DNA from: Branchiostoma lanceolatum
Taxonomy: Eukaryota > Chordata > Leptocardii > Amphioxiformes > Branchiostomatidae
Reading direction: 5' to 3'
Assembly: GCF_035083965.1 (NCBI RefSeq)
Contig: NC_089724.1
Location: 12,394,910 to 12,458,909 of the forward strand
DNA length: 64,000 nucleotides
The translations under genes and the position numbers were made by a program. The notes below the pieces were generated by a model. The model ran no database searches. It saw only the letters and a list, made by a program, of their open reading frames with translations, and had not been told where the DNA came from. This document shows positions 26,101 through 63,346 of this stretch, one piece after another. The first letter of the stretch is position 1, and every line of letters starts with the position of its first letter.

Positions 26101-27425
26101 ATTCGCACAGCTAGATAAAAACGTCTTCGATTTACTGAAAAAAATAAGCGTTAACTTACGTTTACCACATTGTGCCGAGTTCCCCACATAGACTGGGTCC
26201 AGGGAGCACCAGCCGCCGTCCCCGTTATGGTCCGCGCCCACACACGTGTCCCAGTCATGGTTGTCGTAGTTGAACGGATAGATACACTCCTCTGCCACCA
26301 AGGATGGAAACCGAAGGTTCAGTCATATCAAATATTCTTCAATCAATTCACAAGAGGAGAGGGATCTTCAAAGAACTCTTCGTTCGTATCAATGAACAAA
26401 ATCTTAATTCAATCTACAGCACTGGATTACAATATGAAAATATCAGACTTTCAGATTCGCAATATTTCATCAGTGATGGAAAATAATGAATGAAATCTTG
26501 TATAGTTTTGTATTGTATTGTATAGTTGTCTATTAAAGCTTCATCAACATGACGAATGTAGAGAGACTTATCAATGGCGACTTGCACCCTAGCAAAAGAA
26601 TAGACAGAAGAAAGCTAACCCTCGCCACATTCCTTCCAGTTGCCCACGTACACGGCGTCCAGTGAACACCACAGGGCGCCCAAGTCATTCCGTATGCAGC
26701 CGGTGTACGTCACGTTCTCATATTCAAACGGGAAATGGCACGCTTCTATATGTGAAAAATACACGAACAAGACATACATGACTGATATGAATTGTGAACA
26801 AACCAGTCGAAGGAAGATGCAATGCATGTTGTTCTAGGAAGAACCGAGTGACAACTTTTAGTCAAGTGCTGTTAAACAATGTCTGTACGCTTTTATGGTG
26901 AGACCCTGGGTCTCACTATCACCCATATGTCGATTGCAAAGTTTTTTAAACTGAGAAATAAAGTGAAGACGACGTACGTACCTGGCTTGTCGCCGTCGGT
27001 AACCACTGAGAAAGGACATGAAAACACGGTTTCAAACATCAATTGTTATGATAGAGGTGAATTGGGACATTATACACTATGCTTTCTGATAGACGACGAC
27101 CCCTAGGCCCCACACCACCCCACCCCCAACACACACACACATTTTCCTGAATGTTTACAGTTTACTCCTGTTCGGTTCAGCTTTACTCAAATGGGAAGAT
27201 ATCGATGTCACATATTGAATCAATGTTTTCAGGGGCCGTTTTCACCTACTTACACTTTTTCAAGGGATCGGAATGCTTCGGCTAACACTCGTCCATAAAA
27301 TTCGAAGAGAGAGAGGGATGAGAGAGGGAGAGAGAGAGCCTGAGAGATAAAGATAGATAGAGAGATAGAGAGAGATAAAGAGAGAGGGGGACTGGGATAG
27401 ATATATAGATAAATAGCGCGCGCGC

Positions 27426-33967: not shown

Positions 33968-34556
33968 TAACATATATACGTCCATAAACGAAGGCAATCA
34001 TAACGTTTTCCCGTGGCTATTCCACGAAATATATTCGTTTTGAAAGGTGTGCTCCAGGCAAGGCCTCGGAATTTTATCTCATGTTAGTCGAGTCCTTGGT
34101 AGCGTCTCCTGATTGCACCTACTACTTCATTAAGCAGATTTAGATCGAAGCGGGCCGCTTGAGAGGCTGGGGCTTGAAGTGTATTGAGTGGGTAGTTATC
34201 GGACTTTGTGCAATTAAGCTACCTGCTCGACCTAAAATAAAACAAAAGCCAATATGGTGCTAAGAACAGACTACATAATTATACATCGTGGTACAGCCAT
34301 GTTGCTGGTAAAGTTAGAGTCATCTCGGGGAACGGGCCCTCGTGATTATAGGCAACATTTCCATGGCCATGCCTTCAGAGAGTTAGCAATTACCTTGTAG
34401 GTGAGAAGTGAGAATATGAGGTGCAATCAAATTCTTGGTCCGAATCCTCGTTATTTGTATTGTTTGTATTAAGAGTAAAAGTCCAATATTCAAGGTAAAG
34501 GTTTGGTAACATATGTGTACCCTGCCGTTTTGGCAACCCTGTGCGAATGTATCAGA
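33968..34556. other. Intergenic, nothing recognised
   Basis: No domain, splice structure or repeat that I can assign. Confidence 0.4.
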
Positions 34557-35428
34557 AGCCTAGGTTACACATAGCCGAACATGGCTCCCGAACGCTAGCC
34601 GACTCAGGTCGGCGGTAGTTCGGGAGCATTCTGACCAGTTTTTGGGCCACGCCTATCTTTGGCGCCGAACATGCGCCGAAGATGCGCCGATCATCTCCTA
34701 ACCAGTACATGACTTACTCCCGAATGGGCCCCGAATGCTTTCTAGCTTACTCCCAACCATCCCGACCTCTAGCCGCAGACTGCCGAATCTCTCCTGACTA
34801 AACCCCGACCGATTGCAGACCCTCTCACGAATTTAAATGGACATATTCAGCGACTTTCAAAAGAGGGGTCATTTTCGGTTTTAATCAAAATAATCCATTC
34901 TATTATGTTGTTAACATCACCGAGAGATCGAATTCGGATCATTGCTAGCTTTAATACTGCTTTTAGTGTTCTTCTTCGTTTTTGGTCGTGTGAAGGTCGG
35001 GGGTGATTCGCCCACGTTCCGATAGTAGTCACTTGGTTGAGAATTAGTTAGCAGAGTTTTGTCTACGGCCTTGGGGTGAGTTATGGGTAGGTTGGAAACT
35101 AGTTGGGAGTAAGTCAGTAGTGTTTCTGGCGTGGTTAAGGTTCTAATTTTACTACTGACTCAATCCCGAATACCAGCCGAGCACTAGCCGACCGCGCCGA
35201 ACACCAGCCGAACACCAGCCGACCCATTTCAGACCCTCCGTCCAGAGCCGAATGTTTTGAAATTTTCAAAACATTCGGCTGGCGCAGCCGAACACCAGCC
35301 GACTCAGCCGAACGCCAGCCGACTCGGCCGAACGCCAACCGAGCTAGCTCCCGAATCACTCCCGAATCACTCCAACCATGGTCGGGGGAGAGTCGGGAGG
35401 CCATGTTCGGCTATGTGTAACCTAGGCT
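34557..35428. mobile_element. 872-bp TIR element packed with GCCGAACACCAGCC repeats
   Basis: AGCCTAGGTTACACATAGCC at the left end is matched perfectly inverted at the right end (35,409-35,428), and the match extends through CGAACATGGC and CTCCCGA. AGA flanks both sides (34,554-34,556 and 35,429-35,431), a 3-bp duplication. Near both ends short GC-rich repeats (GCCGAACACCAGCCGAC and variants) are stacked in both orientations around an AT-rich core. No transposase. The AGCC end, internal GGCCGA repeats and 3-bp duplication resemble 16,454-16,805 and 28,449-28,705. Confidence 0.85.
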
Positions 35429-35467
35429 AGAGGCTGCCAGCCATTCATTTACCAACAGCCTTGTCCG

Positions 35468-35944
35468 ATAAGCCCATTCGCGGTTCCAACTACGCATGTG
35501 TCAAAGGTAAAGGTCCCTGAGACGTAAACAAATCCCGTCTGGGCGTTGTAATGCAAATCTACTCTCCAAGCAGAGCTAGGGTTTCGGCTGGTTTCTAACG
35601 TGTTTTTAGGCGTTTTTGTCATGCCTTCTACTTTGTCATCGTTTTTGTTGTGCTGCGACACAACAAAAACGATGACAAAGTAGAAGGCATGACAAAAACG
35701 CCTAAAAACACGTTAAAAACCAGCCGAAACCCTAATCTTGGGTTTGCAGCACAACAAAAACGATGACAAAGTAGAAGGCATGACAAAAACGCCTAAAAAC
35801 ACGTTAAAAACCAGCCGAAACCCTAGCTCTGCTTGGAGAGTAATGCAAATCTAGACAATGTGAAGACGAGAACTTTTTACAAGCCAGGGGCCTTCACCTT
35901 TATTGACACTGCACATGCGTAATCGGAACCGCGAATTGGCTTAT
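35468..35944. mobile_element. MITE (second copy), split by a foldback element
   Basis: The ends ATAAGCCCATTCGCGGTT and its inverse match those of the 186-bp MITE at 12,764-12,949 (here in the opposite orientation internally). The central part is interrupted at 35,560-35,842. Removing the insert and one duplicated flank restores GTCTGGGCGTTG, then ATGCAAATCTAGACAATGTG as in the other copy. Confidence 0.9.
35560..35842. mobile_element. Foldback element of the CTCCAAGCAGA family nested in a MITE, 283 bp
   Basis: The ends are TACTCTCCAAGCAGAG and its exact inverse. ATGCAAATC flanks both sides (35,551-35,559 and 35,843-35,851). The comparison copy of the MITE has this 9-mer once, which confirms it as the target duplication. 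The left arm (CTAGGGTTTCGGCTGGTTT, continuing through CGATGACAAAGTAGAAGGC in inverse) is present once, and the right arm twice in tandem, so the hairpin has three arms. Non-coding. The 9-bp duplication is compatible with Mutator-like or Foldback elements. Confidence 0.93.
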
Positions 35945-36289
35945 ACGTATGACATATGCAACATATGCATATGAGATAAACACCAAGGCAGAAATACTTA
36001 GTCACGATTACTGGCAGTTCCTTGCATCCGATAATACTACAAATTGCCTGTGTGTTTTGTAAATTCTAAATATTTTCAAATATAACGTTAACATTGCTAA
36101 TGTGTGGATCGATTCTCCCATCTACAAAAATACAAACCATCTGCGAAGGTCGACATGAACTCCACGTATATATTCATAAATGATGGACATGAGACAAGCC
36201 GCGATCCGAGCTCCACCTGTTTACACACCTGTTGACTTTACCTGTCAAACAGGACTTTGTCCTCGCACAGCATGTCGGGATTTGTTGTT

Positions 36290-36454
36290 TCTCCTGCACA
36301 TTCCCAACATGGCCGCCTGAGCTGCAGAGGTTGACCATTCGGCACTTCACCCCCATTCTGGCCCCACAACGCGCCACAGAACCCACACATTCACCAATTA
36401 ACGACGCCAAGAGAAACGTCTTGATATTCTGAGGAGAAGAGACGTGATTTGCAG
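36290..36454 (+). promoter_or_regulatory. Probable promoter and first untranslated exon of the RNF24/122-like gene
   Basis: CAACATGGCCGCC resembles a YY1 initiator element common at TATA-less promoters; that ATG is followed immediately by a stop. The presumed exon ends TTTGCAG/GTGAGA (donor at 36,455). The next acceptor that fits is at 38,815. The link between the two is inference. Confidence 0.45.
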
Positions 36455-38815
36455 GTGAGATAATTTTGTTTTCCCTGTTGGATTCCGCCGGAGATTCGGG
36501 GTGTTTTCGGAAATGACGGTGCCAGGCACCTAATTATATAAATCCACAAATGTAAACAAATATTCCACAATCAACTTGCGAATAACATTACCATCAACGG
36601 AGACATGTGTTGGTAAATGCAATACCTTCATCTTAATGTCGGTATGCTCGGTATGCTGTCACATATATTTATTCTTCTGCAGTGGAGGAATTTGCACGAT
36701 TAGTTTTAACACGACCCATGTCATGGTCAATGGTGTGTCATGGCTGGCGTCTCAGAATGTGGGTCAGCACCAAGGCCACAAACTAAATAATTCACCCAAA
36801 TGTATTTGCATCACTGCTCTGAAGACAGTAGACAACGTTTGAAATCATCAATAATTACATGTTAGAGTCCAAGACGTCAGGAAACGTCACACAGCGGCTA
36901 CGTGCTGCACATGTTAGTGTAACGTTATTTGATGTACTTTTTCAGAATATAACGTTAAATTCAGAACGAAAACATGTTGTATCGAAAGGAGGAAGATGGG
37001 TCTAGGAGTACAAGTTCAGAATATAGTTATTCTTTTCAAATCAATATCTTGGATTCTGAATTCTAATTGTGATTGACAGCTTAATTTTGTTGTCCTTTAC
37101 CAGGGCCATGCCCTTATCCTCAACCAGTGTCACCGGAAACTGACGTACCTGACGTCAGGAAACTGACGTACCTGATGTCAGGGTCAGAATTTTTATAATT
37201 AGATCAATTTACCATCATTACTTAAGATGCTCAAAATTAATCTACTTTATTTGCTCATGTATTTAATTTGTCATGGAGTCCATACACCCTTGTCAGAGAT
37301 TATAAGAAGCTACAGGTTTATTGTTTTCGAGCGTCTAGAATATGAAACATTTACAATAATCAATATGTCTATGTGAAAATAGCTAACGTTGCATATCTCA
37401 GAAAGATATTCTTATTCCTCAGGGCCAAAATGCTGTATTTTCCCTATACTGTGAAAGTTTGCATCTCGATTAAACACTAAATGTAAGTTTGCACCCCCGA
37501 TTCAGCTCAGGTTGTGGACCAGAGTCTGAAATATTTACATCTTGAAGATGTTTTGCACATGACGAATTCTTGTGCTGTTAGCTATGTGGTTGAGTAGAAC
37601 TTTCCATGTTTTGGTCATCGTTGATATGGTTTCTCCACCCGCTCCGAAGAGTAACATAAGGTAAGGGTAGCAAAATCTACAGCATCACATGCAGCAAGGA
37701 ATAAAGGTTTGTGATATTAGTATAGATTAGAAGAAAAAAATTTATAGATGTAGGATCACAATCTTAAATCTGCATATTAATTATATAGTGTTTTGACCGT
37801 CAGTTGTTTCTGCATGCTTCTCATGCCTTCAGATGTAGATCTTTTGGTGCACAGGTGTACATAGGAATATATGACTGACATGCCCTCTTCAAAGTCATTT
37901 TTCAGAGGCTAGCATAGCTGTAATTAAAAGTCAGACCATTTGCTGTGGTACAATATGTATTTTGAAGTTGATATTGCTAGGTAGTCAATCATATCTAGTA
38001 CGATTTATGCAAGAAATATGTTACCTTACTGAAGTGCAGTATCATCTTGTGTGCAAATTTTTATTACATGTAAACATTTCATGAATCAATTCTTATTGTA
38101 TCATACAGTATATTCTATACATTTGTATTGTATATGACAATAGATTGTACTTTTTGCAAAATGTAACATTAATTTCAGAACAAAAGCAGGTTGTATATTG
38201 ATAGGAGGGGGAAGGGTCTAAGAGTCCAGAATATAGCTATCATTTTCAAACCAATGTCTTGGATTCTTATGTAAAGAGTTCTAATTGTATTATATATAAT
38301 AAGTTATGTTATAAATGAATAAATACATTTTATATACATTTGTATTTATCATATTTGCCAGGGTACCTGGCCAGTTGGAGATTCAATGCTGATTTTTTCC
38401 CAGAAAGAATCTTGAATAAAGTTTGCGCCCCAACTTTGAAGCTGGGATGCCTCACCTGCTTAGAAACAAAACACAGCTTTAACCAAGAGAATTTAGTTCT
38501 TTTCCTGCAATACCAGCATGTAACATTGATAAGTCAATGGTGAAACAACAATGCTCCTCAACTACATGATGGACATTCTTGTAGAAGGCCTGTCAGAACA
38601 CAATCATATAACATTATCTAGACAGAGGAGAGGAGCAGAGGAGAGGTTTCCAGAGGATTAGGTATGGAATAATGGCTGACCATTAAGAAATCTCACTGTC
38701 ATTTATTGTACTGTATGTGGGTCTCCTCATTTGTTGATCTAAATCACATCCAGATGTGCAGATGTTTGGCAAATTCCTATAGCTACTTCCTCTAATCTAT
38801 TTTGTGTTGTTGCAG
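36455..38815. other. First intron (presumed) of the RNF24/122-like gene
   Basis: AT-rich. It contains a small tandem repeat near 37,133-37,182 (AACTGACGTACCTGACGTCA-like, twice), each unit holding a TGACGTCA-type palindrome. No other gene seen. Confidence 0.4.
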
Positions 38816-38831
38816 TCTTGCCAGATTCTAC

Positions 38832-41800
38832 ATGTACCTGACACCAACATACATGATGTCATCGGACATGCTCCTGCACTTCCGTGTGTCTCTGCCTATG
38901 ATCAGCGTAGGCCTCTTCATCTTTGTGTTGAGCCTCATATTCTGCTGTTACCTTGTCAGGTAAGTGTGCAAAAACAATGTAGTTTTACATGTATGTATAC
39001 ATGTATGTTATCCAGGGCATTTGTTTTGTCAGTATTCTTGAAGGTTAGATGTATGTATTTTCGGATCAATATATTGACTTGAAGCTTGGGATTCATAAAT
39101 GGGAGACCACCACAAATATAATTCCAGTGAAAAGAAATTGAGGTTCATGGATCTTCGACTTCCCAGAGCCGATAATCCTGGATTATTATATTATTCAACT
39201 AAAGGTGAAGAAAAAAAAAGAATTCTTTGAAACTTTCAGTAAGAGACATGAAGACACACTGGTTACAATGTATTGGGAATTATAAACATGTAATTCAGCC
39301 AGTTTCAAGTAGCACTTGATTTTGACAGGTTGCAGGACATCATTTGCATATAGTTAGTGTGCAAATTTTATGATTCCTTTGTCTTGAATGTTCCAATGAC
39401 ATGTAATTCCTTTGGTACCAATGAATATTGTGACATTCAAATCATGTAACACAAGACATAACATTTGCATAACTGATGAGCATATTATCATTGCTTTTAG
39501 TTGAATGATGAGGATTCTTTTATTTGTACCTGTTCCATATATAACCCTTCTATGCATTACCTGGACAGTCTAATTTCAAGCAAATAAATTTTCCAAGACT
39601 CATACAATGTATGTCAGCAGTTGTGGAACTCCAGATGTGACGGGTTTTTCATAATCTTAATTATCAATATGTATGAAGGATAGATGTGCATGAAGTACAT
39701 GTTCATGAATATTCATGGTATAGTCTTCAACCTAGTCGAACCAGAAAAATATCAGCAGGACACAGTGTTGATGATTGTACAAAATGAATTGGAATTCTTT
39801 CTGTTTCATTTCCTTATGGCATTCTTTTACTTACTGTCCATCATTCTTGTGTGTCCATTTCTTTCTGTGTCTCTTTGTGCAGATGTATTCTTTCTGAACT
39901 ACCAAACCTAGAAAATGTGTAAGTTCATTACATTCCTCTATAGTGATACAATGTACATTGTATATATGATTAAGCATATGCTTTGATTTATTATATGTTT
40001 GTGTGTAAAAAGATAGGTTGGCGTGCCTTTGATGACTTCTATCTTGTGTGTCTGAACAGTGGTGTTTTTACAAGATACATGTACATGTAGAGTATTGGTA
40101 TGTGCACCAAAACATCTCTGAGTTGTCATTTGTGCCTTGTGGTAAGAAAATAGCTCAACATAGTCCAATGATATGTTGCAAACAAAAACAACATTGTAAT
40201 GCAGATTTCTTCTCAAGACAAGATACCTTCCGTACAGTTTTTATCAGATTAGAGAATATCATCTAGTAAACAGTAATTGCCATGATGCCATATATGCCTC
40301 ATGATACTGTATATATAATTATGATAATATTTGGTACGGTAACCAGAAGCTTTTCCATCAGAAATGCAAAATGCAGAATGTTGCTTCATAGTGCTTTCCA
40401 ACATATAAAGGTATCAAATAAGAAGACTCTTTGTACACAACCAATTGCAAGTGTTCTGCTCTACTGATATTTCGGTGACTGGTTCACAATTGCACTGCAG
40501 CATAGGTGTCATGCTTACAGATGTGGTCCCAAAAGTCTTACAGGACCACGTCTGTAAGCAGTGACACCTAAGTACTGCAGTGCAATGTGTGCAAAGAGTC
40601 CTTTTATTCAGTGACTTACCAACCTGATGAAACGATTCATGAATACAAATGTATCATTTTGAAGCTCAAGGATTTCTTTTGAATGTAAACCAGAATTTTT
40701 ATGTGTAATATAATAAGGAATGACACTTTTTATGATTTCTATAGGATTGCACAGTCTGTGTAATCTTCATGAAAATTTTGCTGGGGAATAAAAAGCTGTG
40801 AAGTTGCTTTGTTAAGTTTAAGTTTAAGTTTTGTTTGAGAGGTAATTACTAGAGTTTGCTTTTGCAAATAGTGGAATTGTCAAATTTCCAATGTAATTGC
40901 CAGGATAACAAGGTTGCCTTTAATTATTGGATTATCCTCTTGTAAAATGGTTGAGGTGATGTTAAGGTGTTGACCTCCCTTGGCTAAAAACTCGCCTTTT
41001 AATAAAGTTTTATCCCTTTTAAGACTGTGGCGCCATCGTGTGAAAGTGATGGGAAACCCGAAGTAGGAGCAAAATTGGGAAGGTTAAGAGGAATGATGAA
41101 ATACAACGGAGGCTGCGTTTCGTGCCTCTTCTAGTCTTCATTTAGTTGGTGTGCTGGCAAGGAAGCCAGGTGTGATATTTTTTGAGGGAGAATGTATAGC
41201 AAAGGAAGCTCAGCATTGCCAAGTGCATACCAAGGTTGAAATTTAAGCCTTCTCATTAGTTATGCTGTTTGCCTGGCTTGAAGGGGGCCTAGCTCATCTA
41301 TTATTTTTACCAGTGACATTCCGATCAATAGCCCATGTCAAACTAGAGGTAAAACCAATCTACTTTCCATATAAATCACCTTGCAGGTAAGACTTCGGTT
41401 CCACTCCAGGAAGACTCACTGTGCACTGTGCACACTGGACTTGTACATGTGTGCTGTCCTTGAGATATCTTGTCCAGGTTTATAACAATTGCTGAAACTT
41501 GATTTTGTTGATGAATGAATGACATGTGACGTATTTCAGCTGATGGGTAACAATGCTTGAACCTGATTACATGTAAAGGGTTTAAAATTATTATTACGAA
41601 TGTATTTTATTCATTGTTTACGAATGTATATTTGTTAGCTTTATGTCAAGTATTTTTCTTTTGCATCCTGATTTGTTATGATTTTGTAAAAGGCTGCCTT
41701 GGTAATCAGTTATTGTAATTGAAAGTATTAGCCTTGAGATTTATAAATAACTGAATAGACAACAACTGATGCAGAAAGCTTTGCTGCTGATGGGGAAATT

Positions 41801-44800
41801 GCTGTGAAGTCTTCAGAAAGCTGTCGCAAAATGCGAATATGTCATGCATGGTTGTGAATATCTTAAGAAATGAGCACAATTACACATGTTATGAAAAAAC
41901 TCTTATTGCTGAACACGTGCTGTGTGTTGGCTTTGTGGCCTGTAGCAGAATATTTGGTAAGGCCTAGGAAAAAACATGTTGTGTTTCTGGTTAATACCTG
42001 ATTGACCCTAGCAATTTAGACCTGCAAAAACGTAGCTTTTTTTAGTCTGTATGATTACAATATGATGTTGAAAATACCAGTGCCAGATTCATTTCAGTTT
42101 TACATTGCTAAACTGTATCTTTTTAATCACTTCATCTGAAATCTAGAAAAAAATACAGTCAAACCTGTACAACTTAATACAATATAAGGATCACCTGGCC
42201 AATGTGACCACTTTTTGTTGGTCCCTTAAAATTTTTTTCCCATGATTGTTTGACAAGCATTAAGAATTGTGTCCATAGTGAATACCTGTCCACATAGGCC
42301 AGATTTTATCAGTCTTCCGAGTGGTCTTCTTGGGCAGTTTTGACTTTAAGAGAATCCCTACCCTACCTACCGACCCTAATTTTCTCTGGACCAAAACCAG
42401 AAGCACAGCATTTTTGTTTGTTTGGCCCAAGTACTAATTCAAAGGAGCCACCAAACTCGATGAGAAGAGTAGGGGTGACCCGGTTAATGCTTGGCCAAAT
42501 TGAGGGCATTATCGGCTCAAGTCATCTTTACCTTCACATGATGACCAACAACCTATGATGTAAACAAATTATCCCTTTTCATATAACTTTGGTTTGGTAT
42601 CTGGATTCTGCATCTTATACATTTTATTGGAAACCAGCATGCATCCCCCAAAATAATTGATTTACAATAAACTACTCCTAGCATCATCACCCAGCCTGAT
42701 TCCCGTAATAGGCACAAACCACGAACAAACACGCAGTCTGACCAATTTTGACTAATGGCCAATTAGTAGACATCCCAGCTGATGATGTGGTTCATCATCA
42801 CCAGATGTCACAATCAATTCAGGGATAACATGATGACCTGGGCAACTGTAACAGATTTTTTTCCAATAACACTGATATAAATGTACAGATTTTCCCCCCA
42901 ATAATACCTGTACACATCTACATGTACAATTGTATTTAGTCTGTTCAAGGAGGTTGAAATGATATCTTTATAAAGAGGTCTTGGGCTGTTCTTGGAATTG
43001 AATTGGGGAGCAGCACCATAGTCAGATGTTCATTCAACAAAATAGATAAAAACATCTGACCCCAAGGCAAAGATTTAGGAGTATTATTAGGAGTATTACT
43101 AGTGCAAGACCATTGTAGCCACATAATAAGGAGGGCCTGCATGCCCCTTTTACGTAGAGCGTAATCAGCCGTTTTAATTTTACGTAGTGTTGCCAACCAC
43201 TCCATAATTTAGCGTAGAGCGTAGGGAGGCTTTTCTGAATTCAGCATAGAGCGTAGGTACTAGGTAGGCTTTCTGAATTTAGCGTATTACGTGGCCGGCC
43301 CTCCGAATTTAGCGTAGAGCATTGTCGGGACCCCCTGGCAGGCCCTCAATAAGTACATGTACATATCAGACAGTCATTCAATAAACTATTTTTGCATGAA
43401 CATTCTGAAACTGCTGGGGCTTTCTCAGAGCTTGATGTATTTTTCTCTCTTACACTCCATGGTTTCTGTCTGGTGCCACTTTCTTTCACAAAAGGTTATA
43501 TCAACCCTCAGTTTGCCTGAAAATACAGCATCCAAACTGAGAGAACCAGAAAGGAATCATATTCAATTACCATAAAACTGCAGACGGCTGCCTCCACATT
43601 GCTTATTACCTTGGCCTTCAGGAGTACTGAATTATATCTTCATGTCATAACATAACTTAAGACTGTTAGGCAGGTTCATGCCCATTGAAATAATAAGGGC
43701 TGCATGGCAATAACACCTATCCATCAGACTGCATAAATCCTGTACTCTTGCCTGTGAATCCCATGTTGCAGAATGAACCTGAGCGTCTGTGTGTGATGTG
43801 AATAGAATGCTCCAAGCAGATCAGGAGACTTGGCACAATTAACACACAACCCCCGGCATATTGAAAATCAATCAGAACCCAACACATATCTCCAGAGCTG
43901 ATCTTAAATGGGAATTTCTTAGTGGCTTACCATTAGAACTTTTTGTGGTCAGTGTTGCATGGCCTCATGATGCCCCTGCACTAATCATAATAAAACAACC
44001 TTTTCACTGTAAATTATGTATTCCATTCATAACATTAGCATGGATGTGCCATGAGGTCTGGGTGAAATGCTACTGTGCATATACGATCCACATGATTTTT
44101 ATTTCACATTAATATATGTGTGAACATGAGGTGGTGGCATGGTCTATATTGGCTTTGTCATATAAATTTGGAGATAGACAATCCGTAACTCTCCGCAGAT
44201 TATCAGACTGTCGGCCCGCTGTTATGCCGCTTTAATTGTTGCCCATCTCAGAAGCAGATAAGCAATTTGCTGGCGTTCCCAGGAGGCCTTAAGTATAACA
44301 GGAAGCTCTGCCAGCCATGGAGGAGGCTGTGGATGGTGATATTGCAATGGTTGGACTTGCCGTTTTCTCCTGTTATATGTGTCTAGTGCTGGTAGCACTG
44401 TGTATGTGCTGTTACCTCTGTCATAGCAGGTAGGTTGGAGATCTTATACCTGATCCACTGGGGAGAGGAGGGGGTTGCTTTAATTGATTTTTCAATGAGC
44501 TAGCCTACGTAATGCTGGTGTGCGGTATACTATACATGATATAGATAATGTTATATGGAGGTGGTGTAGAATGGTGATTTTAATGTAATTTGTAATTGCA
44601 GTATCAGAAACCATGGATTGTGTTATGTAAATTAGTATTTGACAAAAAGCAAAGGTGTGATCTGTGTTCCATTGGCAAATGGCGCATGGAGGGATTCCAT
44701 GAATAGTGTATGATGACCTTCATGATACAGCCTGGTAGATAAACCACAGTGTAGTGACGTTGCAGAGTCAACCATTTTCTGTCACTGGTGACGTAATCAA

Positions 44801-47800
44801 CCAAAAATGTGGATACTGTTGCTGCATTTCAGGCAGCAGAATTATTGAATATTGTTATTTCAAAGCGCTCTTCCCGGCAGCACGGCTCATGTTATGGGCC
44901 ATACGCACGCACACGCACCTCCATCTTTTTTCTCTCTACATCAAAGATGAAAAGAAACATGCACTGCTGTTCATCACAACCAAGAAAAGAAAGAAATTGT
45001 TTTCAGAAGGAAATGTCAAATGTGTGATGCCATGAATTCATATATCTTGACAGGAAGCCGTGACTGATATGAAATTTTGCCCTATGGCCATATTTGCCAT
45101 ATACATATGTTAGAGCAACACTGTTGTAAATTCTACGTCAGATATTTTAATTGGTAGGCTATCTTCCATCTTGTAGCAAAGCTCCTCAGACCTCTTTGTT
45201 TCATTAAGAATATAGAGGTTAGAGAATAGAGCAGAATAAACTTGGATGGAAAATGACTTGTACGTGTATGAGTGTGTATTGATAAAACATTACCCCTGCA
45301 ATATGGTGTTTGTCAACAATTACAACATGTACTACAATGTTTTGCCATCATTATACTAGTAATCATTCTTCTCTTCCAGTGGTCATTCTGTATATGAATT
45401 GTCTTTTTTACTTTACCCCAGGGGAGTGAAGTATTGTTTTTGGCGTGTCTCACAGTCTGTGTGTATGTGTGCGTGTGTATATCATGTTCTGCCATCTGCA
45501 ATACAATACCCAATGCATCCTTACCATACATCCTCAGTGCTGCTATTTTGTATCACGGGGTTTGAAGGGTCACAAAGCAGAATGAGTTCTGTCTACCAAT
45601 TGTTGTTCTGATAGTCACTCTGATCTGTCCTTGGGACCGTTTATACAAAATGATGAATAATTTTTTTCTGTGACATACCAGACAATTTAGGATCAACTTT
45701 TTAATCATTGAAAAGCCATTGTAAAGCACAGGTCATGGTGAACATTTCTACAATGTACAACAACTCCATAGCCATTATGTTCTGCCATCTAATGACAATC
45801 TGGTGCACAGTTGACCTGCAGTAGGGGCAAACATGTTTACACTAAATTACAGCATTAACCTATTACATGCCCTATGGTGCTGTTGTCCAAAAGAAAAATT
45901 TGAATGTTGTGAGTTGTTTTAGCTTCCTAAGAGATGGCATGGCATGTGGATTTACATGTATGAGCCCAGGGTTTTAGGTTAGTATTATGAAGTCATAAAC
46001 CTCTATACCATACCACCAACTTTCCCCTCACTTTCTAACAATAGGCTCATTGTTTCCACTTGTTGAAAGTATAAGACTATGAATTATTGATAAATGTATT
46101 TTTTAATGGGTATTGCATTTTGCTGTTAACATTTCTACCAGGGTCAGTTTATAAACATGGTATAGAACTTACATGTAATAGACACTGTTTACCTTCTTAT
46201 CCATCTTTCATAATTTCATAGTCTGCTTGATATGTAAACTTCATATTTTATAAGTTTCATACCGATCTAAACATGAAATGGAAACAATGTGGATCTGAAA
46301 ACACTGACTAGCTAAACTTGCTTGACATGACATTGTATTAATTGGAAACTTTGATGTCAACCGTTACATGTTGATGTACAAATGTAGGTTGTTTGCTGTA
46401 CTAATATTACATGACTTGATTACGATCGCTTCAGGACTTGTGACAGTTCGTTGCACAATGTAAGTGGCTCAGGCACAAGGGGAGAGTGACGTGTGCACAA
46501 ACAAACAGGTCTAACAACTAGGTTGGGAACATGTCAAAACTTCTGCGTTTATCTTGTTAGCAGAATTGTTATTGTCTTCGGTAAACAAGTTTAAGTAATG
46601 TGATGCTAAAGTCTTGTCATTCTGTTGGATTTCAAAGTACTTTTGAGTGTAAGAAATGGGCATCTGAAACATTGGAGAGGGCATTGGTAGCATCCAGGAG
46701 TTCTTTTGTGGGTTGTTCAAAACTTCAGGCATTATCCCTTGTTTATTGTTTCGTGCAAGAATTCTTGTTAGAATGTTAGCTGCATCATAAGCTGGTGTCC
46801 ACCACGTAGTCCTTTGACGTCACTTGTGCAACTGCTACTCAAAATGGTGGAACTTGTAGCATAATACCATTGTTTTTTAGCTGCTTCAAGATGTAATTTG
46901 GGAGCTTGACCATGCTATTTCTGGACGAGAACACCCCAATGTGATCTTTTGGGCAACTTGTACAATCGCAGTATGACTGATCATGATGTTCCCTACGACA
47001 TTGGATATAGTGTCATACTACCACTGGCTCCCAGTATTGCCATTGTTAGTGTCTTCCTCTGTTGGTGCTGTACTTGTTGTTACTGTCACATCAAGCGAGA
47101 GGCAAGGTGGGCAATTATGTGATCTTGTTTAATTAAGATTTGGTGGTTAAAGGTGTGTGTAGCTTGATGACTTTCAGTGGGATGGCGCGCTTTGCCCATT
47201 GTGATGACATAAAGGTGGCCCGGCACTTTTGCTGAAACACATTGGTAGTAAAACGTCACCACGTTTGACACCTTAAACCACAGATGGTCTTTTCTGACAT
47301 GTTAGGGCTATCTTTTGCTTGAGGCATATTTCCAGCCCTCCTAATGAACAATTTAACTGCCGTTACAGCAGTAAATGAACAAATTAACATCCTTTGCACA
47401 ACTAAAGCTACTGCAACTGTCCTATCTTCTTCCTCAGTAGTACAAACTGAAGAAAGTTGGCTACAATTAGTACAAATGACAATGCTATCTATTTTCAAAG
47501 CACTTGTTTTGATTCCCTCAGGGAATTTGGATCTTTGTCTGCATTTCTGTGTGCAAACAAGCATGTAACTATTTCTTTCTCAAAACAAGCTGAAATGCAG
47601 GACTTATGCTGGCAGTAAGCTATTTTCCATTTTGTAATCACTGTGTTAATAATTTACCGTAAACATTGTATAGCCCCATGTTTTAGTCTGTAAGTGGAAT
47701 GTGATTCTTAGGTGTGTGACTATAGCGCTGCCGTAAACTTAAAACCACCGCGGACATTCCATTTTCGCCTTATCGTGAAATAAAAACCACACGAACTGAA

Positions 47801-50800
47801 ATGCATTTTCAGTATGTGGATCGTGAGAGGCAGACATTGCTATTTTATACTATAGTCAATGACGGAAATTTGTACACGATGACGGAAACAAATAATTCTT
47901 TGTAGGCTCTTTCCGTCAATTCAACTTGCTGGAAGTTGTGCTGTCTAAAATCACATCGTTATCGATCCATCTATGTAATACTTTACAATATTTGACATTA
48001 AAACACCCCGTTTTGAGAACCATTATTTCTTGGTCATGTTGTGAGTAGATCCTCTTCAAGCCAACCACTTGTCCAAGATGACCTTTTTTGTCCGGTCCCC
48101 TGAGTGGTCGTCTTGAGCAGGTTTGACTGTATATTGATGATATTTTTTTGGCTCTCAATAGAAAGGGTATTGATATGGTATCACTTAATATAGTTTCTTA
48201 ACTTCCTTTTCTTGGACCTTTCTGCATACATTATAATATCATACTCATCTCTTTCACATACCTGTCAATAAATACCTCACCAGGAACATCAACACAACAA
48301 TAGGGCAGTCCCCTTACATAATACACGACTTTCACCTGCAGGACAGATACATACAGAGCCAGCATTTTCCCAGGCAGAGTAATTGATCGGAATAATCTAC
48401 CCACACGTCACATCGCCAACAGTGGACAGCCTGAATTTGGGGTTGGCTTCCTGGGTTGGCTCAGTTCAAGGGCCTCCCCAACCCCAATTGTGAATCAGGT
48501 GATATATTAGTTATAGTGCAGCCTTGTGAACATTTCACAGTACTGAATTTTGTTTTGTTTTGAGCACCTTTTTCATTATGTGCTACCAACCCCACAGGCA
48601 GCACTTAAAGCTGTGTACCCAGGGCATGTTGTCCCAACTGGGGGCTTTGCCCTGAGTACAAAATAGATGTGCATATACATGTACATGTAAATACAGTTGT
48701 ACTATTTCTTACTGTATAATGTTACATGTAGGTCTGGACCTGAACCTGATAATGTTTAACGCATTATGGGTATATCATGATCATGTAAACACCCAGGTAA
48801 ACAGCAGTCCAGTTCAGTTCCAGCCTAGTCTGTATGTCAGTTACTAGTATTCTCCAAGCAGAGGTTTTGGTCGGGGGGGGGGGGGTAGTAGTGGCCGGGT
48901 TTTTTTAACATTGCCTCCCGGAACCTCTGCTACAGAACGCATAAGGGCGGGGCTGTTCTTTCAGAATCGGTGTTGCTGCCCCTCCCTGTGTACCATTAAT
49001 TTATCATTAGGCAAAGAGTTTTTGCTGCCGGGGGATTAGCGCGGCCTCCGGTAACTTGGGGGAGTGTGCAGCCAGCCGGCCGGCACCCCGCGGTCTCCCC
49101 CACAATCACTTTGAATGGCTCCCGCCAGATTGAAATCATCATAACATAAAGTAAACTTTCCCCACATTATGATAAATGCCTTTTTAAGAAATCAAAGATA
49201 TAAATAAGATAGAGTAGTTCTATACGAGCACTTTCTTTTCCCAAACGTATGTACAGTGGTTTACTGCGTTCCTGGTCCGGCAGACCGGAAACACCCGTGG
49301 CGCGAGGACAGAAACACTAGACTCCCTTGGCAGACTTAGCACCTACTTTCAAAATGGCCTTTATGTGACAAAGTGATTAGATTTAAAAGCCTTGATCGGT
49401 TCCGACATCTCGCAGAGGTTACGGGAGGCAATGTTAAAAAAACCCGGCCACTACTACCCCCCCCCCGACCAAAACCTCTGCTTGGAGAATAAGTTACTAG
49501 GTCAACTCCTGTCTAAACTAACCTGCATCTAGGGCATGTGTCCCAAGGGAACATTATCAAACTGTGGCAAAAATAGAACCCAGAAGGGAGGGAAATCTGG
49601 TTTGATTTAGTCTTTGTTTATGTTGGATTAACCAGTTAGTAGTGTTTGTTCTGGTAATCAGGTCCACTGAGGTTTAGGTGGTTAATAGATTCCAGGTTAG
49701 TACTGGTACAGGGTGCTGGACAGGTGCCCACCCACTGACAGACATCATTGACATTACAACCCTGCTACATTAATATATAGTCTTTCTATATTGACCACAG
49801 ATTGAGATCATCTTTGCAGCATCAAAATGTGACTGTTTATAAGATTGTTGTTTTTCTTACAATGTCCTTAAACTGTCTTTTGTGTTACAGGTTGAGAAGA
49901 GAAGCAAGGCTGGAAAGGGGATACAAAAAGGTATGTGCTGGTTTTACTGTGATATTACTAGGGTGTTGTGTCTCAAAAGTCAAAGTTTATATTACAAGAT
50001 TAATGAAGCTTCCATGTGAAATAATCAAAATAGACTGGTAGAATCAGTAGAATGTAGAATGCTGTACATTATAGTACTTCACCCACCATGCACACATATC
50101 GATGCATGTTTTATTTATTGGCTGTTAAAAGTTGATTAAAAGTTGTGTACCATGATTTCACATGGTACATGAAATTCATTCCATTCTTAGGCCACGCCAA
50201 TTTAATTTGTTGCTTCTCGGAATAGCCTCGAAAAAAAAAATTGGGTCACTATTCCCATTCACAAATTATAACTCCCAATTTTACTATCTGTTCAGTTGTA
50301 AAACTCAATAGCCGCCAAAAAAAGATTATTAAGGCCTGCGCATACCTAAAAAGTGTGGTCACATTGATCATAAGTTTTTCATTTATGAAATCTATTTCTC
50401 AATATCATGGCAAAAGGTAATTTTGTTACTGAAATTTATAGTACTAGATCAAAGAAAGGGGTGCATTTGCATAAAATGAGCCATACAATTGCAAAGCTGA
50501 AACTTGAATAATCCTCTACATATTATTTTGTCACAATATTTTTTTTTTCGCCCTGTCGCTTCAATTTTTTTCAGAAAAAATCCGAGAAGCAACAAATTAA
50601 ATTGGTGTGGCCTTATGACGTCAATATGTGTACTTGATGAGCAGGTGGCATGATTGGAATCTTTTTGTCTGAAAAGTGATCAGAATGAACCAAAACAATC
50701 ATGGTTGGTTTTCATTATGTAGCAATGAGCACTTTTATCAGTGCCATATATGGAAGATTTTTACAGGTACCTTGCTTGAAATTTGCGTTTGTCTGAGCCA

Positions 50801-53800
50801 TTTGGGAAAGTCAAAATTTACTGTGTAGCCTGAAGCAACTGATGAAACTTAACTTGTTGCTGTAGCACAGAAACCACGCAACAAGAGATAGATTGCTGTG
50901 AAATGCATCTCACTTAGGGAAAAGCAATTACTTGCTCTATTATAGACTCTATTATAGACCTATACACGTCATAGCTTCATAAGGGTAGGGTGGCAATGAC
51001 GTGAGCAAATTACTTGTCCCATACTGAGGCATTAGCATTTGATATGCATACTAGTACATGTGTATTACAATGTCGTTCACCCAGAGAACATGTACAACAT
51101 AAACAATGTTATGTCATTTATTATACCTTGCAAGTTTCATTGTAGACTTCATTGTAGAAAATTGTGAAGTATGAAGTAAGATTTTCTTCAGCTGTTGGTA
51201 TATGTACTTTGATGCCCTTCATGCAATGATATTGCAGAATTATTACAGTAGAAAATTGTTTTGTTTTGATTTCATGCACACTTATCTGATAATACTAGTC
51301 ACCTCATCTTATCTTCAAGACAGTGTACTGAGTACTTACCAGATAATAATATCTAGCATAGTAACTCATCCAACCTACAATTGTTTTAGAGCATGACCTA
51401 CCTTGGGCAAAGTTTTACAAATGAGACATTCAAGCGAACTGAAGGACATGTATTAATGTACATTTAGACATCTTGGACTTATTGTGATCATCATTTTCTT
51501 GATCTATGATTTACAATAGCTGGAAACCTTGTATGTTGTGGTGCTCTAAGTTGCCAAAATTAGAAAACTATTTCTGTAGCGTGGAAAAGTTGCATGAGGA
51601 CACTAAACTCCATAGCAGAGGACAGGAGAAGACAAATTACCATCAAATTGACATTTCAGGCAAAAGCAGCAGGCAGCCCAAAGTGTAGGTCTTTACAAAT
51701 TGGTCTCTGGAGAAAGTCATGCTTTGCTTTTGTCAGACAATCAGATATATTGTCCTGCTGTCAGGCAAATGCCCAAAGAAACACACAGAGCACACGCATA
51801 CATACAGCTTCTTTACAGCAGCTTCAAACTAATTGGCATTCCCACAGCAACTATGAAAGAGTTAGGGATGAAGTTGTTGGACTCAAGTTGTTGGAGACAG
51901 CAAGACAGGCTGTCCTGTTTAACTGATGCGGGTAGAACACTTCCACATATATGCAGAAACATATCCTTCCACCTGTTTCATTTAAAAACGTATATTGTGA
52001 CCACCACTATCTGACTCACACGGATGGCTTATTATAATACCTGTGTAGTATGTCATACCCACAAAAGATTATCTAGCTGCTTCTGGATTGGTCCTACAGA
52101 ATTGTTGATATTGTTTGGTGTTCCTCTTGGTTGACAGAAAGATCCTACTGGCATTTACAGTACCCTAAATGGTAATGCTACAGAATCCAACATGGCAGAC
52201 CCTGATGCTCTGATAGTTACTTCTTGACCAACTGTCTAACCTAATGGAATCATACAGACTTCAGATTCTCTTCAGTGTCAAGATTACTTTGAGGTTCTGC
52301 CCCTCTCTCGCATTTCAGGGTTGGTTTGGACCAAAGTTCTTGGCAGACTATTTTGTATTGGAGCAATATCGCCAGGGGTGCCTTAAACCATGCAAACAGA
52401 GTTCATAAAATCTGTACAAAGATGATGAAAAATGCAACAGGTGCTATGCAAAAATGCATGAAGCACTATGTGAAAACATACAAACCTTATGAAAAACAGA
52501 GTTTGACGGTTTGTCAAAACTGCACATGTTGTCTAAGCTGGCCAACCGCTACCTGGATCATGTGACCAAATGTCATCATAAATGTCATCAGACGATGCGG
52601 CGTCAAGAGAATAAGGTGTCACTGTGACGCGTCGAAATGAAGCAAAAGAGTAGTTCACAGTGTATCAAATGTGTCTTTGTGATAGTATAAGCCCATTTAA
52701 TGCTTTAAAGTCAATATCATAGGTGGAAACCCTAAGCAACATATACCCTCTCCCAATGCAGCAGTTGGCCGTTTTTTCTTAAGATTTGTACATTTCACAT
52801 AGTGCTTCGTCATTACCTTCGCCGAGAAGGTTATGCAGAGGGTAGCGTTTGTCTGTCTGTCTGTTTGTTTGTTTGTTTGTAGTGGCACAGAATAACTCGA
52901 GAATGCCTTGATGGATTGTCTTGGTATTTGGTATGTTGGTAGGTTTTGATGAGACCTAAAAACGATTAGATTTTGGGCCCCCTAGCGGCTTCTTATGGTA
53001 CTGCAGCGGAACTTCCTGTTTTGATATCTCGTGTTCTGGACATGTTATGGAACTGATTTTTGAGTGGTAGATAGATCTTTGGACAGAGAGTAAGTGGTGT
53101 GGGTTTGGGCCCCCTAGCGGCTTTTTTGGAACTGCAGGAGCAGGTTTTGCGTCTGACTTTGAAAGGGAATAACTCAAGAAGGGCTTGATGGATGGTTATG
53201 ATTTTTGGTAGGTAAATAGCTTGAGTGATGATGTACATGATTAGACACTTCTTATGCAAATCAGTGTCTAATTTGCATAATTAATGAGGAAAGTTTATCC
53301 ATCCGCCAAATTCCATGATAGGACTCTGAAACAAGTGACATATGTAACTGAGGAAGAGAGAAATATTAATTGAAATGAACTATGCAAATGAAGACCTCAT
53401 TTGCATAATTAATGAGAAAATACTATAACATGATGGCCTTGATGGATGGTCATGATTTTTGGTATGTGGATAGCTTGTGTGATGCTTAGTATGATTGGAC
53501 GATAATTATGCAAATCAGATTCCAATTTGCATAATTAATGAGGCAACTATAAAAATCCGCTTTGTTCCATGACATGACCATTCAAATTGTAACTGAGGAA
53601 GAGAGGACTGTTAATAGATAGAAAATATGCAAATGTGGGCCTTATTTGCATACTTAATGAGTAACTTCTATTATTCCTCACTGGCAAATGACGGCAATTT
53701 CATACATTTAATCCTTTTTTGTGGCATCGGGACGTTATGTGAATGTGAGCATCGTTGAATCAAATTATGCTAATAAGGGCCTCCTTTGCATAATTGATGA

Positions 53801-56800
53801 TAAATATTAGCATAATCTTCTTTGTTAAGCTCATACTTTGGACATGTTATATTTTAAGACAATCAACTGGTATGATTTATGATTGATGAGAAAAACTCCT
53901 AATACGTCAGTCATAAAGGTTAAAATCATTTGGCGAAGGTATGAGGTCGTGGAACTCTAGTTTTACATACAATCCACACGTTTTCGTGTAGTGCCTCATG
54001 CATTTTTCATAAGATTCATATGTTTTTGCAAAGTGCTTTGCATGCTTTTCATAAAATTCGTACAAATTTGATGAAATTCGTACATATGCTTAGGCACCCC
54101 TGGTGCTTCAGACATGCGTACATGTACGGGATCGTGGAGACAGATGTTTTTTTTCCAGTCATGATGAATACTGGAGCAGGAACATGAATAGGTTTACATG
54201 AATAGGGTCTACTAATGTACGGAATGAAAAGACAGATTCTGTAGCCCACCCACTTCTGTCAAAATGTATGAAATGCAAAATAAAACATGAAAATACAAAT
54301 AATTGATGGACATGCTGCTACGCTTTCATTGGTCGAGCCGCTAATTGTGATGGGCAGTCAGGACTGGTCTATAAGAAAAAGGTGCTTTTATTGGCCAGTA
54401 CAACATGTACATGGTGAAAGTACATTTTTGTAAATGGACACAGTTTCCATTGCATTGTTGTCACCCTGTATACAAATGTACTATAGAAAAGATCAGCTTC
54501 TTTCTCAACAGCTACATCTTCTATCAGTGATATTTAGGTGGGGAAGGTTACATGCATGTAGTGCATACAAATTTAATATACATGTACAATGTATTGCATG
54601 CTATTGTTCTGGTGCTAGGTTACACAATTCAAATAGAAAATAAAGCAGTTAACTGTAGGTTGACTGGTTTTACTCTAATTTTCTTGAATTTGTGTTTAAG
54701 GATTGGGGTTAAGTGAAAGTTTACAAAACCTTGCAATGAAAGAGGGCCTTTTTAGTCTTCGTAATCCGTAGGCAGCCACCCAAAATCAACCTTATCCGTA
54801 TGTCGGCCGCAATGCGTAATTGGTCGCTTTCATTCTACGTAAAACGTAGGCAATTACGTTTCTGCAGCGTAAAACCTAATCTATGAATTACTAGTAAAGC
54901 GGCTGATTTCCAGCAAAGTCTCTCAGCAAAATTGCACCTCGAAACCAAGGAAATAGCGTTTCAGAGGGTCAAGATTTTATAATTTTCCCTGAGGAGCATT
55001 CCCCCGGACGCATTTAGCACCCTCCACGTGGTCAACATAAGGTCAGCAATATCTTGCACCTCCCCTCCTATACAAAATGTCCTGTCGCCGCCACGGCTAC
55101 TCATTATTGATTATAACGTTTAGTGTGGTTATAAACAGATTCATCGTCACCCCCCAATCAACATAAAGTAAATAGTTTTGACGAAGAACAAGATAGTTGA
55201 ATTAAAATTGTTACAGTCGGTTGGGAAGCCTCATGATTTAACGTAATCCGTTATCAGCTCTGAGAATTTAACGTAATTTGTAATCACTCACCCCCCCACC
55301 CCCCACCCCATGCAGGCCCTCATGAAATGCATAATGTTTTATAACCATATAGGATAAAAGAACTGAAAATGGTAGATGTTATGGTTGCCAATTATGCTAC
55401 AGGCTTACAAATTGGTCCCAATTGAATATTATCTTTAGTTTTCTGAACTAACAGCAATCCAGTATTTGTATAATTTTCAAAAGTGCTGCTGACAGGTCAC
55501 ACTATACCTCTGCATCATTGGTCACTTCATTTAAACTTGAAAATTGTGTATATTTCACTCAAGCAACTTTACTGAAGTACAGTATGTCTTTTAATTATGT
55601 TCTCTTGATGCTAATCAGTATGTTTATCAATATTATTTGTTTTAATGCCTACACGGCATTGACACTGCTTAGAAATATCAAAGACCTGTTATCCATACAT
55701 GGCTGCTAAGAGTAATTCTGTTCTAGATACTGTATACTAGTATCTGTATAGATCTGTAGCAGTTTTCTATTGCTCTATTTCAGATCACATACAAGAAAAA
55801 GAAATGTTCCTCAAATGAGGTAAGTGAAATGTTATGTTTTCATCATCAGAACGAAAGCTGTTTAACCTTCGAATCTCCCTGCTACCTAACCATTGACCAA
55901 TTCAGAATGGGTAACCAAACGGCTACAAACGAATGCTGAATTAACGACTCATAGAGCTGTCATTCTATCGTCTCATACCCTGGTAATACTTTCATAATTC
56001 AGACCAACAAGGTATGATTGGGATATGTCACTGAGAGATTTGTCATAAGTCCCATGTATCAATGGCTCTTTGAGGCTTGCATGTTCCATGCAGTCACCAA
56101 TGAAATTACCTTCTGTTCACATAGTCTTATCTCCTTCCTCCTGATTGCTTATTGCGCTAAATTTCATGGGAACCAGTGTCCTTGAAATTGGGCCATCTAG
56201 ATCTATCATGAGATATCACCCAGTGACACATACAATCACATATCATTGCCTTGATAATCTATGTATCTGCACTAATGCCTACATGCCTCTATGCCTTATC
56301 TTCTGTATCCTACTACTGATTATAGCTGGACTTCCTCTCGGACAAGGTAGGGGTGACTATTTTCATCTGAGAGAACATTTTCTCACTTCCCTTACGCTTC
56401 TGTCATTACAAATATTGGGTGTAGAAATACAAATGTATAGTGTGAATGTGGCTAGCAGTAAATATTTTCTTAGTATACATATATTGTGGAGATTACAAAC
56501 ATTCATGTACATGGTATCATTTTCTTTGCTGTTGTCATAATGTTTTATGTAACAACCCGAATAATCGTTGTATTCATGCATGCATGCATGTAGTTAATTT
56601 TAGATGGGTACTGCTTCTGTATATCTGTCTGTATTATTGTGGTCAACTCCAAGGCACATAGAATCTGCAATCTCTCGTTAAAATTGTTACAATTAGATAT
56701 GACTATTCTGAAACAGTTGCATTGTGTTTCCAGTGTCTGAAAGAAATAGTTTTCTATATGTAAACTTGTAGCCATACTGTCATGTGTGGACATTTTGACC

Positions 56801-57733: not shown

Positions 57734-58239
57734 TGGACCCTTCCAATCACACACCATGGGTAGTTGGAAAGGTCCATTAGTGAGACAGGTAGGAGAGCTG
57801 GTTTAGAAAGTTAACATTACGTAGACTCAAAGTCATTTCCTTGTTTTATATATAGTCTTTTTATACGTGGAGGATTATTAAAATGACAATAAATTAGTAA
57901 CAGCCTATTTTATCCAACAACCCGAATACTTCTATGTATCACAAAACTCCTTTCCTTCCCTTGTACTTCAAAGAGATATGTAGAAGGTATTTATCAATAT
58001 GAATATGACTAAAATTGTGGTAAGTAATGCTAAGGTTTTATGTCAGCTGTTAAGTGTTAAGCTGGAAGCTTTAAAAAATTGGAAAGCAATTTGTAATAGT
58101 GAATGTGTATATAGTTGTATCAATTTTTGCAATCATGGTATTCTGGTCTTTCTTTTAAATATCAGTGTAGCCAAATGTTAAACCAAACTGGCAACATGGA
58201 CTTAAGCAGAACTTGAAGATCTTATGTCTAGGAAGCTAA
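57734..58239 (+). other. 3' region of the RNF24/122-like gene
   Basis: Follows the TGA at 57,731-57,733. AATAAA at 57,888-57,893 is a reasonable polyadenylation signal. No further gene seen. Confidence 0.5.
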
Positions 58240-62278: not shown

Positions 62279-63346
62279 TTAGAAGTCACCGTAGTTAAGA
62301 CTGGCATGGTACATCAGCAACTGAGAATTAGAGTATTCCAGCCAGTCAGACGAACGGCGCTGCACACTTTCCACACCACTCAGCACCGTGGCTGTGAAAG
62401 ACAGCAGAGTGCCAAGACAAAGCAGGGCAAACCAGATGTGATACATCTTGGCAAGGATCTTGTCTGTAAGTCGCTGTTTACTGACTTCATCTGCGAAGCT
62501 GAAAACCAACATCAGAACAACAAAAGCAGCCAGGAGGAGGAATGTCATTAGGTTGCCGACAAAGGCAGAAAACTGGAACAGGTAACGTAGGCAGGGGCGG
62601 CGGGACACGCCTTGGTAGCAGTCACAGCACCGCCGAGCCAGGTTGGACAGTATCGAGCACAGAAGGACGGTCCCACTGATCACAACTGCAGCGAACAGGA
62701 AGGAGAAGGGGCATCTGCCATCTTGATCCAGCTCCATGTTCCAGTTCCAACATACTGACACCTCTTTTGTAGAGTTTTCCTGCAACACAGGTACCATTCA
62801 ATCTGATTTCCCTTTGATGGGTACTCCTTCCCACTAAGAATCACAGGCCATACTGAGAGCTGTACCAAGTACTTGCAATTGTTTATTCCTATTACGATAT
62901 TCTTGAGTAAAATATTAAGAGTTAAAGGTACTGTAAATGCAGAAATGTTTGCGGGGATTTAATTTTGTGGTAGGGAGAAAATGGGAGTGTTTGCGGTGGT
63001 TTTGAGTTCACGTTTGAAACAATAGTAGCGCTACAGTCACACATTGGAGCGGCTTTTCGCAGTGGTTTAAGTTCCCGGTAAAGAGCTCACCGCAAAACCG
63101 CAAACATGTCTGCATTTACAGTACATGTATATGTCCCATTGTTAAGAGAATCATTTTCAATCTGACCGAGGTCTGATCATGACAGAGACTTACCGGTACA
63201 CCTGAAGGAGAGATGGTGGCTATTGGCACAGAGAGGGAGTCATCTGATACATCCAGGAACACAGGCAAGATACTGCCCAATGTCAGGAACGTGCATATGA
63301 AGGACACCACTCTCAGGGTGGTGGGGTGGCACCCTTTCAGGGCCAT
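62279..63346 (-). CDS. Four-pass transmembrane protein, 217 residues, unidentified
   Basis: Two coding exons, 63,194-63,346 and 62,279-62,779, join in phase 0. The ATG follows an acceptor at 63,355 by eight bases, so the leader is in an upstream exon (about 63,814-63,880). Hydrophobic segments lie near residues 11-32, 76-98, 121-146 and 164-186. The loop between helices 1 and 2 has an NST glycosylation site and the paired-cysteine stretch VCWNWN...DGRCPF. Cysteines cluster after helix 2 (RRCCDCYQ). The C-terminus ends SLNYGDF. Size and topology resemble TMEM179-type or other tetraspan proteins, but I cannot assign a family from sequence alone. Confidence 0.8.
62929..63123. mobile_element. TA-flanked CTGTAAATGCAG MITE in the four-pass gene's intron
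   Basis: CTGTAAATGCAGAAATGTTT at the left is matched inverted at 63,100-63,121, with TA on each side. Subterminal TGCGGTGGTTTT / AAAACCGCAAA repeats face each other. It is the cleanest copy of a family whose fragments lie near 10,200-10,289, 19,320-19,460, 47,735-47,815 and 58,240-58,303. Confidence 0.8.

Follow-up and report, generated by a model that had tools for sequence, protein, structure and literature searches.

How many membrane anchors can a single ubiquitin ligase gene carry? The question is raised by a stretch of 64,000 nucleotides (nt) from the amphioxus Branchiostoma lanceolatum (contig NC_089724.1), hereafter the window, on whose plus strand lies a small RNF24/RNF122-like RING-H2 ligase gene with coding exons A (from 38816) to H (ending at 57733). 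An earlier note on this DNA had proposed that exons A, B and C are alternative first exons, each coding for a transmembrane helix, and that all three feed one ligase through exon D. We lean, with some reserve, to the view that B and C are used as alternative anchors of this ligase. One RING-H2 ligase with three in-frame alternative anchors is the best-supported reading of the DNA, and B and C share family-specific features with A and D; the part of the proposal that found no support is that A is a first exon. The gene model, with all features on the plus strand, is as follows.

36300–36454, plus strand: candidate non-coding exon 1, proposed from the donor after 36454 (TTGCAG/GTGAGAT), its only defined end; the start is a guess
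38816–38959, plus strand: exon A, the conserved RNF24-type anchor, with an acceptor before 38816 and a donor after 38959
44317–44429, plus strand: exon B, candidate alternative anchor, 37 residues and then a split arginine (R), with a phase-2 donor of 8/9
46973–47106, plus strand: exon C, candidate alternative anchor, 44 residues and then a split arginine (R), with a phase-2 donor of 7/9 and an end resembling the start of D
49891–49930, plus strand: exon D (40 nt), predicted to be common to all forms, the split arginine (R) and 13 residues, with an acceptor in the top 1.6% of AGs
55784–55819, plus strand: exon E, a 13-residue peptide
56326–56346, plus strand: exon F, a 21-nt microexon coding for LDFLSDK, with a weak acceptor (−0.62)
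56978–57057, plus strand: exon G, first half of the RING-H2 domain, 26 residues and then a split lysine (K)
57610–57733, plus strand: exon H, second half of the RING, a C-terminal tail ending in PVTRV, and the stop codon

The identity of the gene is indicated by both ends of its protein. Among solved structures, the best match to the RING was RNF24 (2ep4; E=1.1e-21, 80.6 bits), the next distinct chain reaching 1.3e-12 and 51.3 bits, and a Pfam match to zf-RING_2 (E=8.4e-15) lay above the family cut-off. A six-frame motif scan of the window with four RING patterns found this one RING only. When exon G ends at 57057, the D–H tail is open through to the stop in H. For exon A, the ATG at 38832 named in the earlier note is followed by an internal ATG at 38856 (MSSD), which we prefer and which agrees with what we take to be the start of human RNF24; counted from the MSSD start, the A form has 134 residues. 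The human RNF24 and RNF122 letters used in all alignments are backed only by the protein lengths (148 and 155, Table 1 of PMC10357820) and by the RNF24 RING segment of the 2ep4 match. Against these letters the exon A peptide scored 81 and 78, respectively, while shuffles preserving hydropathy class averaged 31.2 and 30.2 and none of 2000 reached either score, which bears out the likeness of A to the RNF24/RNF122 helix that had been claimed. On these likenesses, we assign the gene to the RNF24/RNF122 type. The coding microexon F, with its weak acceptor, sits directly before the RING exon G, and 25 nt past the end of G starts a 49-bp inverted repeat (57082–57186; 92% complementary, 7 nt between the arms).

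All three anchor exons were found as the earlier note had described them, at 38832–38959 (A), 44317–44429 (B) and 46973–47106 (C), with an ATG, an open frame and a GT donor each. Each codes for one hydrophobic segment, the best 19-residue Kyte-Doolittle means being 2.71, 2.55 and 2.27 for A, B and C, and each ends in phase 2: the lengths of 128, 113 and 134 nt are all 2 modulo 3, and exon D opens in the matching phase. Compared with MAG/GTRAGT, the donors of A (CAG/GTAAGT), B (CAG/GTAGGT) and C (AAG/GTGGGC) agree at 9, 8 and 7 of 9 positions. The frames of B and C are intact, the 37 and 44 codons between ATG and donor being free of stops, and the ATG of B has a purine at −3 and a G at +4. None of the repeats of at least 28 nt listed within 38000–58000 overlies A, B or C.

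Could B and C be chance open frames in intron DNA? We regard this as improbable. In a stringent scan of both strands, candidates were frames running from an ATG to a donor over 28–65 codons in any phase, with a donor of at least 7/9 and a 19-residue hydropathy of at least 2.2. The 64 kb held six such candidates (four on the plus strand and two on the minus strand), and those in phase 2 were exactly A, B and C; of the remaining three, one overlaps exon F, one lies in a minus-strand membrane gene, and one is a CA repeat. Dinucleotide shuffles of the A–D intron (39000–49880) served as the null. At least two stringent phase-2 candidates arose in 0 of 400 and in 2 of 6000 shuffled introns. With the hydropathy cut at 2.0, the real intron held three candidates (B, C and one at 46459); of 6000 shuffles, 7 held at least two and none held three. 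At a loose cut (donor 6/9, hydropathy 1.8) the real intron again held three, and at least three occurred in 74 of 6000 shuffles (1.2%); thus, the excess is weaker but persists. The candidate at 46459 was considered as a further anchor (donor 8/9, hydropathy 2.02) and rejected: its summed biological-scale value is +2.4 and it has no CC motif.

A second and less tunable test was based on the CCY motif of the family, which all three anchors carry. The window has 12 TGYTGYTAY sites (8 on the plus strand, 4 on the minus strand). Three of them run open into a phase-2 donor within 45 nt, donors of 6/9 being allowed, and these are the sites of A, B and C; three other sites reach a 6/9 donor in another phase. 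What speaks for chance is that the two strands of the window yield 49 candidates when the cut is loosened to a 6/9 donor and a hydropathy of 1.6 in whatever phase, and that at least one loose phase-2 candidate is present in 33% of the shuffled introns. However, CC lies in the last 14 residues of four of these 49, namely A, B, C and a weak phase-0 candidate at 41956, and 17 of 7401 loose shuffled candidates, counted over all phases, have CCY in their last 14 residues. Both this placement and the IKREAR end of C, described below, are rare in controls, and the counts of two stringent or three loose candidates given above are seldom matched. Since the scan and the CCY-site test single out A, B and C, and shuffled introns rarely hold two such frames, the pair of B and C is unlikely to be due to chance.

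Next, we asked how the anchors are related to each other, to exon D and to RNF24. The A–B peptide score of 44 was reached by 0.05% of plain shuffles and by 1.35% of hydropathy-class shuffles, and the B–C score of 47 by 0.3% and 3.5%. In the DNA, TGCTGTTACCT-TGTCA is common to A and B beside the donor (0.2% of 500 shuffles). The statement that B and C do not resemble the RNF24 helix was correct in part. Both keep the CCY juxtamembrane motif, and B aligns with the RNF24 and RNF122 anchors above most shuffles, fractions of 0.0055 and 0.0435 of the class-preserving shuffles reaching its scores; for C the fractions are 0.143 and 0.0795, so that C is not clearly alike. A kinship of B and C with Hemotin/stannin (PF21944) was also considered, at E=0.032 for B and 0.018 for C, with 14–15 bits against a cut-off of 27. 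We rejected this kinship, since a match to another membrane family at E=0.019 came from one of eight shuffled controls.

The end of exon C resembles the start of exon D. IKREA(R) at 47090–47106 aligns with LRREAR at 49892–49909 with a BLOSUM score of 23. For comparison, all donor ends of the real window in phase 2, with a donor of at least 6/9 and the last six codons open, were scored against LRREAR: among these 968 ends (507 on the plus strand and 461 on the minus strand, C included), the next-best score was 19, and none of 28,228 shuffled donor ends reached 23. C thus appears to include a variant of the D start, as if it derived from a piece in which the anchor end and the D start were already together, or were itself older than the intron. 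No second D-like exon was seen in the window: the best other ungapped matches to the 13-residue D peptide are at chance level (23 on the plus strand and 22 on the minus strand, versus 65 for D itself). On these matches and the single RING of the six-frame scan, we rejected the idea that B or C uses another RING or another D-type exon. Our reading is that B and C are putative copies of the anchor exon that have since diverged and would provide alternative anchors.

Are the anchor exons first exons or internal exons? An acceptor just before 38816 scores 4.17, in the top 1.3% of the 3846 AGs of the window. Because this strong acceptor precedes it, A appears to be the first coding exon but not the first exon, contrary to what had been proposed, and is probably exon 2. 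The donor at 36454, with a score of 7.0, is one of three donors above 5 within 34500–38800, of which the one at 37660 is slightly higher (7.2). The observed/expected CpG ratio is still about 0.9 around the 36454 donor, and about 0.3 and less from 37.5 kb. We think it likely that a non-coding first exon ends at 36454. The steep fall of the ratio across 36000–37800, from about 0.9 to 0.3 or less, has the mosaic form to be expected where a gene body is methylated. In the A–B intron, the donor at 41386 is strong, yet no long open helix-coding frame precedes it; it could end a non-coding exon.

For exon B, the best acceptor in the examined stretch (44180–44317) scores 3.3, in the top 2.4%, and lies 34 nt upstream of the ATG; it is better than that of microexon F. 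For exon C (46800–46974 examined), the best acceptor scores 1.4, in the top 5.8%, and lies 82 nt upstream of the ATG, while the AG beside the ATG scores −4.7. Acceptor scores run from 4.0 to 7.4 for D, E, G and H, and F has −0.6. The lack of a strong acceptor right at the ATGs of B and C makes us lean to true first exons. Given that microexon F has an acceptor of only −0.6, the weak acceptors of B and C favor, rather than prove, promoters of their own. Two motifs are weak promoter leads:

44161–44166, plus strand: TATAAA, starting 156 nt upstream of the ATG of B, one of 35 such plus-strand hexamers in the window
46815–46822, plus strand: TGACGTCA, a palindromic cAMP response element (CRE), starting 158 nt upstream of the ATG of C, one of four in the window

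Alternatively, C might be a cassette or mutually exclusive internal exon between A and D, entered through the AG just before 46972. Such an exon, 46972–47106, would be 135 nt long with phase 2 at both ends, and its frame fits the A donor and the D acceptor. The acceptor of −4.7 is, however, equalled or beaten by 36% of the AGs of the window, as opposed to −0.6 to 7.4 for D–H, and we hold this arrangement to be very improbable.

As for a CpG-island promoter mark, no 250-nt window of the gene body with an observed/expected ratio of at least 0.7 covers B or C. Two of the CpG-rich patches overlie inverted repeats. Elements resembling miniature inverted-repeat transposable elements flank exon D at 48848–49491 and 50189–50613, and are locally CpG-rich in the CpG-poor gene body.

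Several observations weigh against B and C as used anchors. The thresholds of the scans were set after the exons had been seen. The A–C peptide score of 29 is not significant, being reached by 4.75% of plain and 19.1% of class shuffles, and in DNA-level comparisons of A with C and of B with C no likeness was found. In an ungapped search of the plus strand with the A tail, B came third (33), behind A and an unrelated site at 53821 (34), which speaks against copying. The fair acceptor upstream of B means that B need not be a first exon, and the CpG ratios just upstream of B (0.55) and C (0.44) are not island-like. C has the weaker donor (7/9) and a marginal hydrophobic segment. Were it joined to D, the product would oddly have REAR twice (KREARLRREAR); the AG before 49909, considered as an acceptor within D that would remove the repeat, scores −16.9 and was rejected. 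The proportion of G and C at third codon positions (GC3) is low in B (0.46) and C (0.41), compared with 0.74 in A, 0.61 in D–H, and 0.55–0.80 in six other coding stretches of the window. Against 1272 overlapping stop-free intron frames, a synonymous-codon score ranks B within the highest 9.6% and C within the highest 5.3%; the D–H tail, left out of its own training, stood at 7.4%, a likeness that speaks for B and C, and A lay above all intron frames. The codon evidence on B and C is thus weak either way and ambiguous.

These points suggest the possibility that B and C are relics, diverged copies of the anchor exon whose splicing to D has ceased or become very rare. The low GC3 with ambiguous codon scores, the lack of a CpG island at either exon, the donor and marginal helix of C, and the repeated REAR would all suit relics. 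Against relics, both B and C keep an intact frame from the ATG to a phase-2 donor; we find this explanation unlikely, though it deserves more weight than chance. Still less probable is that just one of B and C is a real exon. That exon would more likely be B, whose donor, start-codon context and helix are stronger (donor 8/9, hydropathy 2.55) and which resembles A and RNF24, C being weaker on each count; however, the end of C resembles D, and its CCY lies in frame before a phase-2 donor. The use of both B and C as anchors is the reading that we carry forward.

What would exchanging the anchor do? The net charge on the N-terminal side of the helix is 0, −4 and −3 for A, B and C, and on the C-terminal side +5, +2 and +3. 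As the N side is neutral in A and acidic in B and C, and the C side is basic throughout, the positive-inside rule would place the RING in the cytosol in all three predicted forms. The summed biological-scale value of the best segment is −3.15 for A, −2.59 for B and −0.18 for C, on a scale applied with position effects ignored. A, B and C have 2, 6 and 6 cysteines. Juxtamembrane cysteines are common sites of S-acylation, from which an altered membrane residence may be predicted.

We propose the following course of events. In a gene of the RNF24/RNF122 type, the membrane-anchor exon would have been copied at least once. Exon A, probably spliced from the non-coding exon near 36.4 kb, would give the conserved protein, in which a short N-terminus in the lumen is followed by a single helix with FCCYL at its end, and then by a basic stretch and the RING-H2 ligase in the cytosol. 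B and C, as diverged copies within the 10.9-kb A–D intron, would each have a start codon and probably an internal promoter of their own, and each would be spliced to the common exon D. Their products would retain the cytosolic ligase, the N-out topology and CCY, with a more acidic N-terminus and six cysteines replacing two. Most likely, this would alter the membrane in which the ligase resides, by way of S-acylation at the juxtamembrane cysteines and of helix length. The open frames, phases and donors, the rarity of their combination, and the likeness between the C end and the D start are read directly from the DNA; transcription, splicing, copying, topology, acylation and localization of the B and C forms are predictions from it. 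A more far-reaching version is that the gene swaps its whole anchor by promoter choice among tandem anchor-exon copies, each with its own start, which differ in cysteine number and N-terminal acidity, so that palmitoylation and helix length would direct the ligase to three membranes. We view this version as possible but doubtful.

If B and C are used, then three forms differing only in the anchor constitute a natural experiment, in which the effect of the anchor on membrane residence and substrates could be followed with the catalytic part constant, and anchor-dependent substrate choice would be testable in one gene. The gene resembles human RNF24 in the spacing and sequence of the RING-H2 domain, in the order of helix, basic stretch and RING, in its comparable length, and in the anchor LSLxFCCYL; it differs in the two extra anchor exons of the A–D intron and in the C-terminal tail. 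With human RNF122 (Q9H9V4, 155 residues) it shares the anchor LSLIFCCY, the basic stretch and the RING-H2 domain, while the N-terminus of RNF122 is longer in the human sequence used here. Another comparison is RNF128/GRAIL, whose isoforms differ upstream of a shared helix, whereas in the amphioxus gene the helix itself would be exchanged. The likeness is that RNF128/GRAIL is one RING ligase for which two isoforms are reported, with a shift between them in disease (PMC10920915). Human RNF24 (Q9Y225, 148 residues) is given as a single-pass RING ligase in Table 1 of PMC10357820, the running text of which speaks of two predicted helices versus one in the table. RNF24 and RNF122 are described as little characterized ligases, reported at the endoplasmic reticulum and Golgi, and as candidates to take over some of the tasks that Tul1, a Golgi ligase, has in fungi (PMC6669922, PMC10357820). 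A literature search for RNF24 with amphioxus returned only a match about GnRH synteny; RNF122 with amphioxus was not searched, and we make no claim of absence from print. Among viral contigs, 14 pattern matches to possible relatives were obtained, none of which was confirmed.

Rfam at gathering thresholds and ARAGORN gave no match. Elsewhere in the window, a TMX2-like gene lies on the plus strand at 17931–19946; its sequence, put together from two pieces at a guessed junction, matches 9kcm_T (E=3e-70). On the minus strand, open frames at 23804–26322 include a CUB domain (23804–24154) and a fibronectin type II domain (25972–26322), and a gene for a multi-helix protein without a Pfam match occupies 62279–63397. 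At 5370–6787, a 135-bp unit is repeated 10.5 times with a 95% match.

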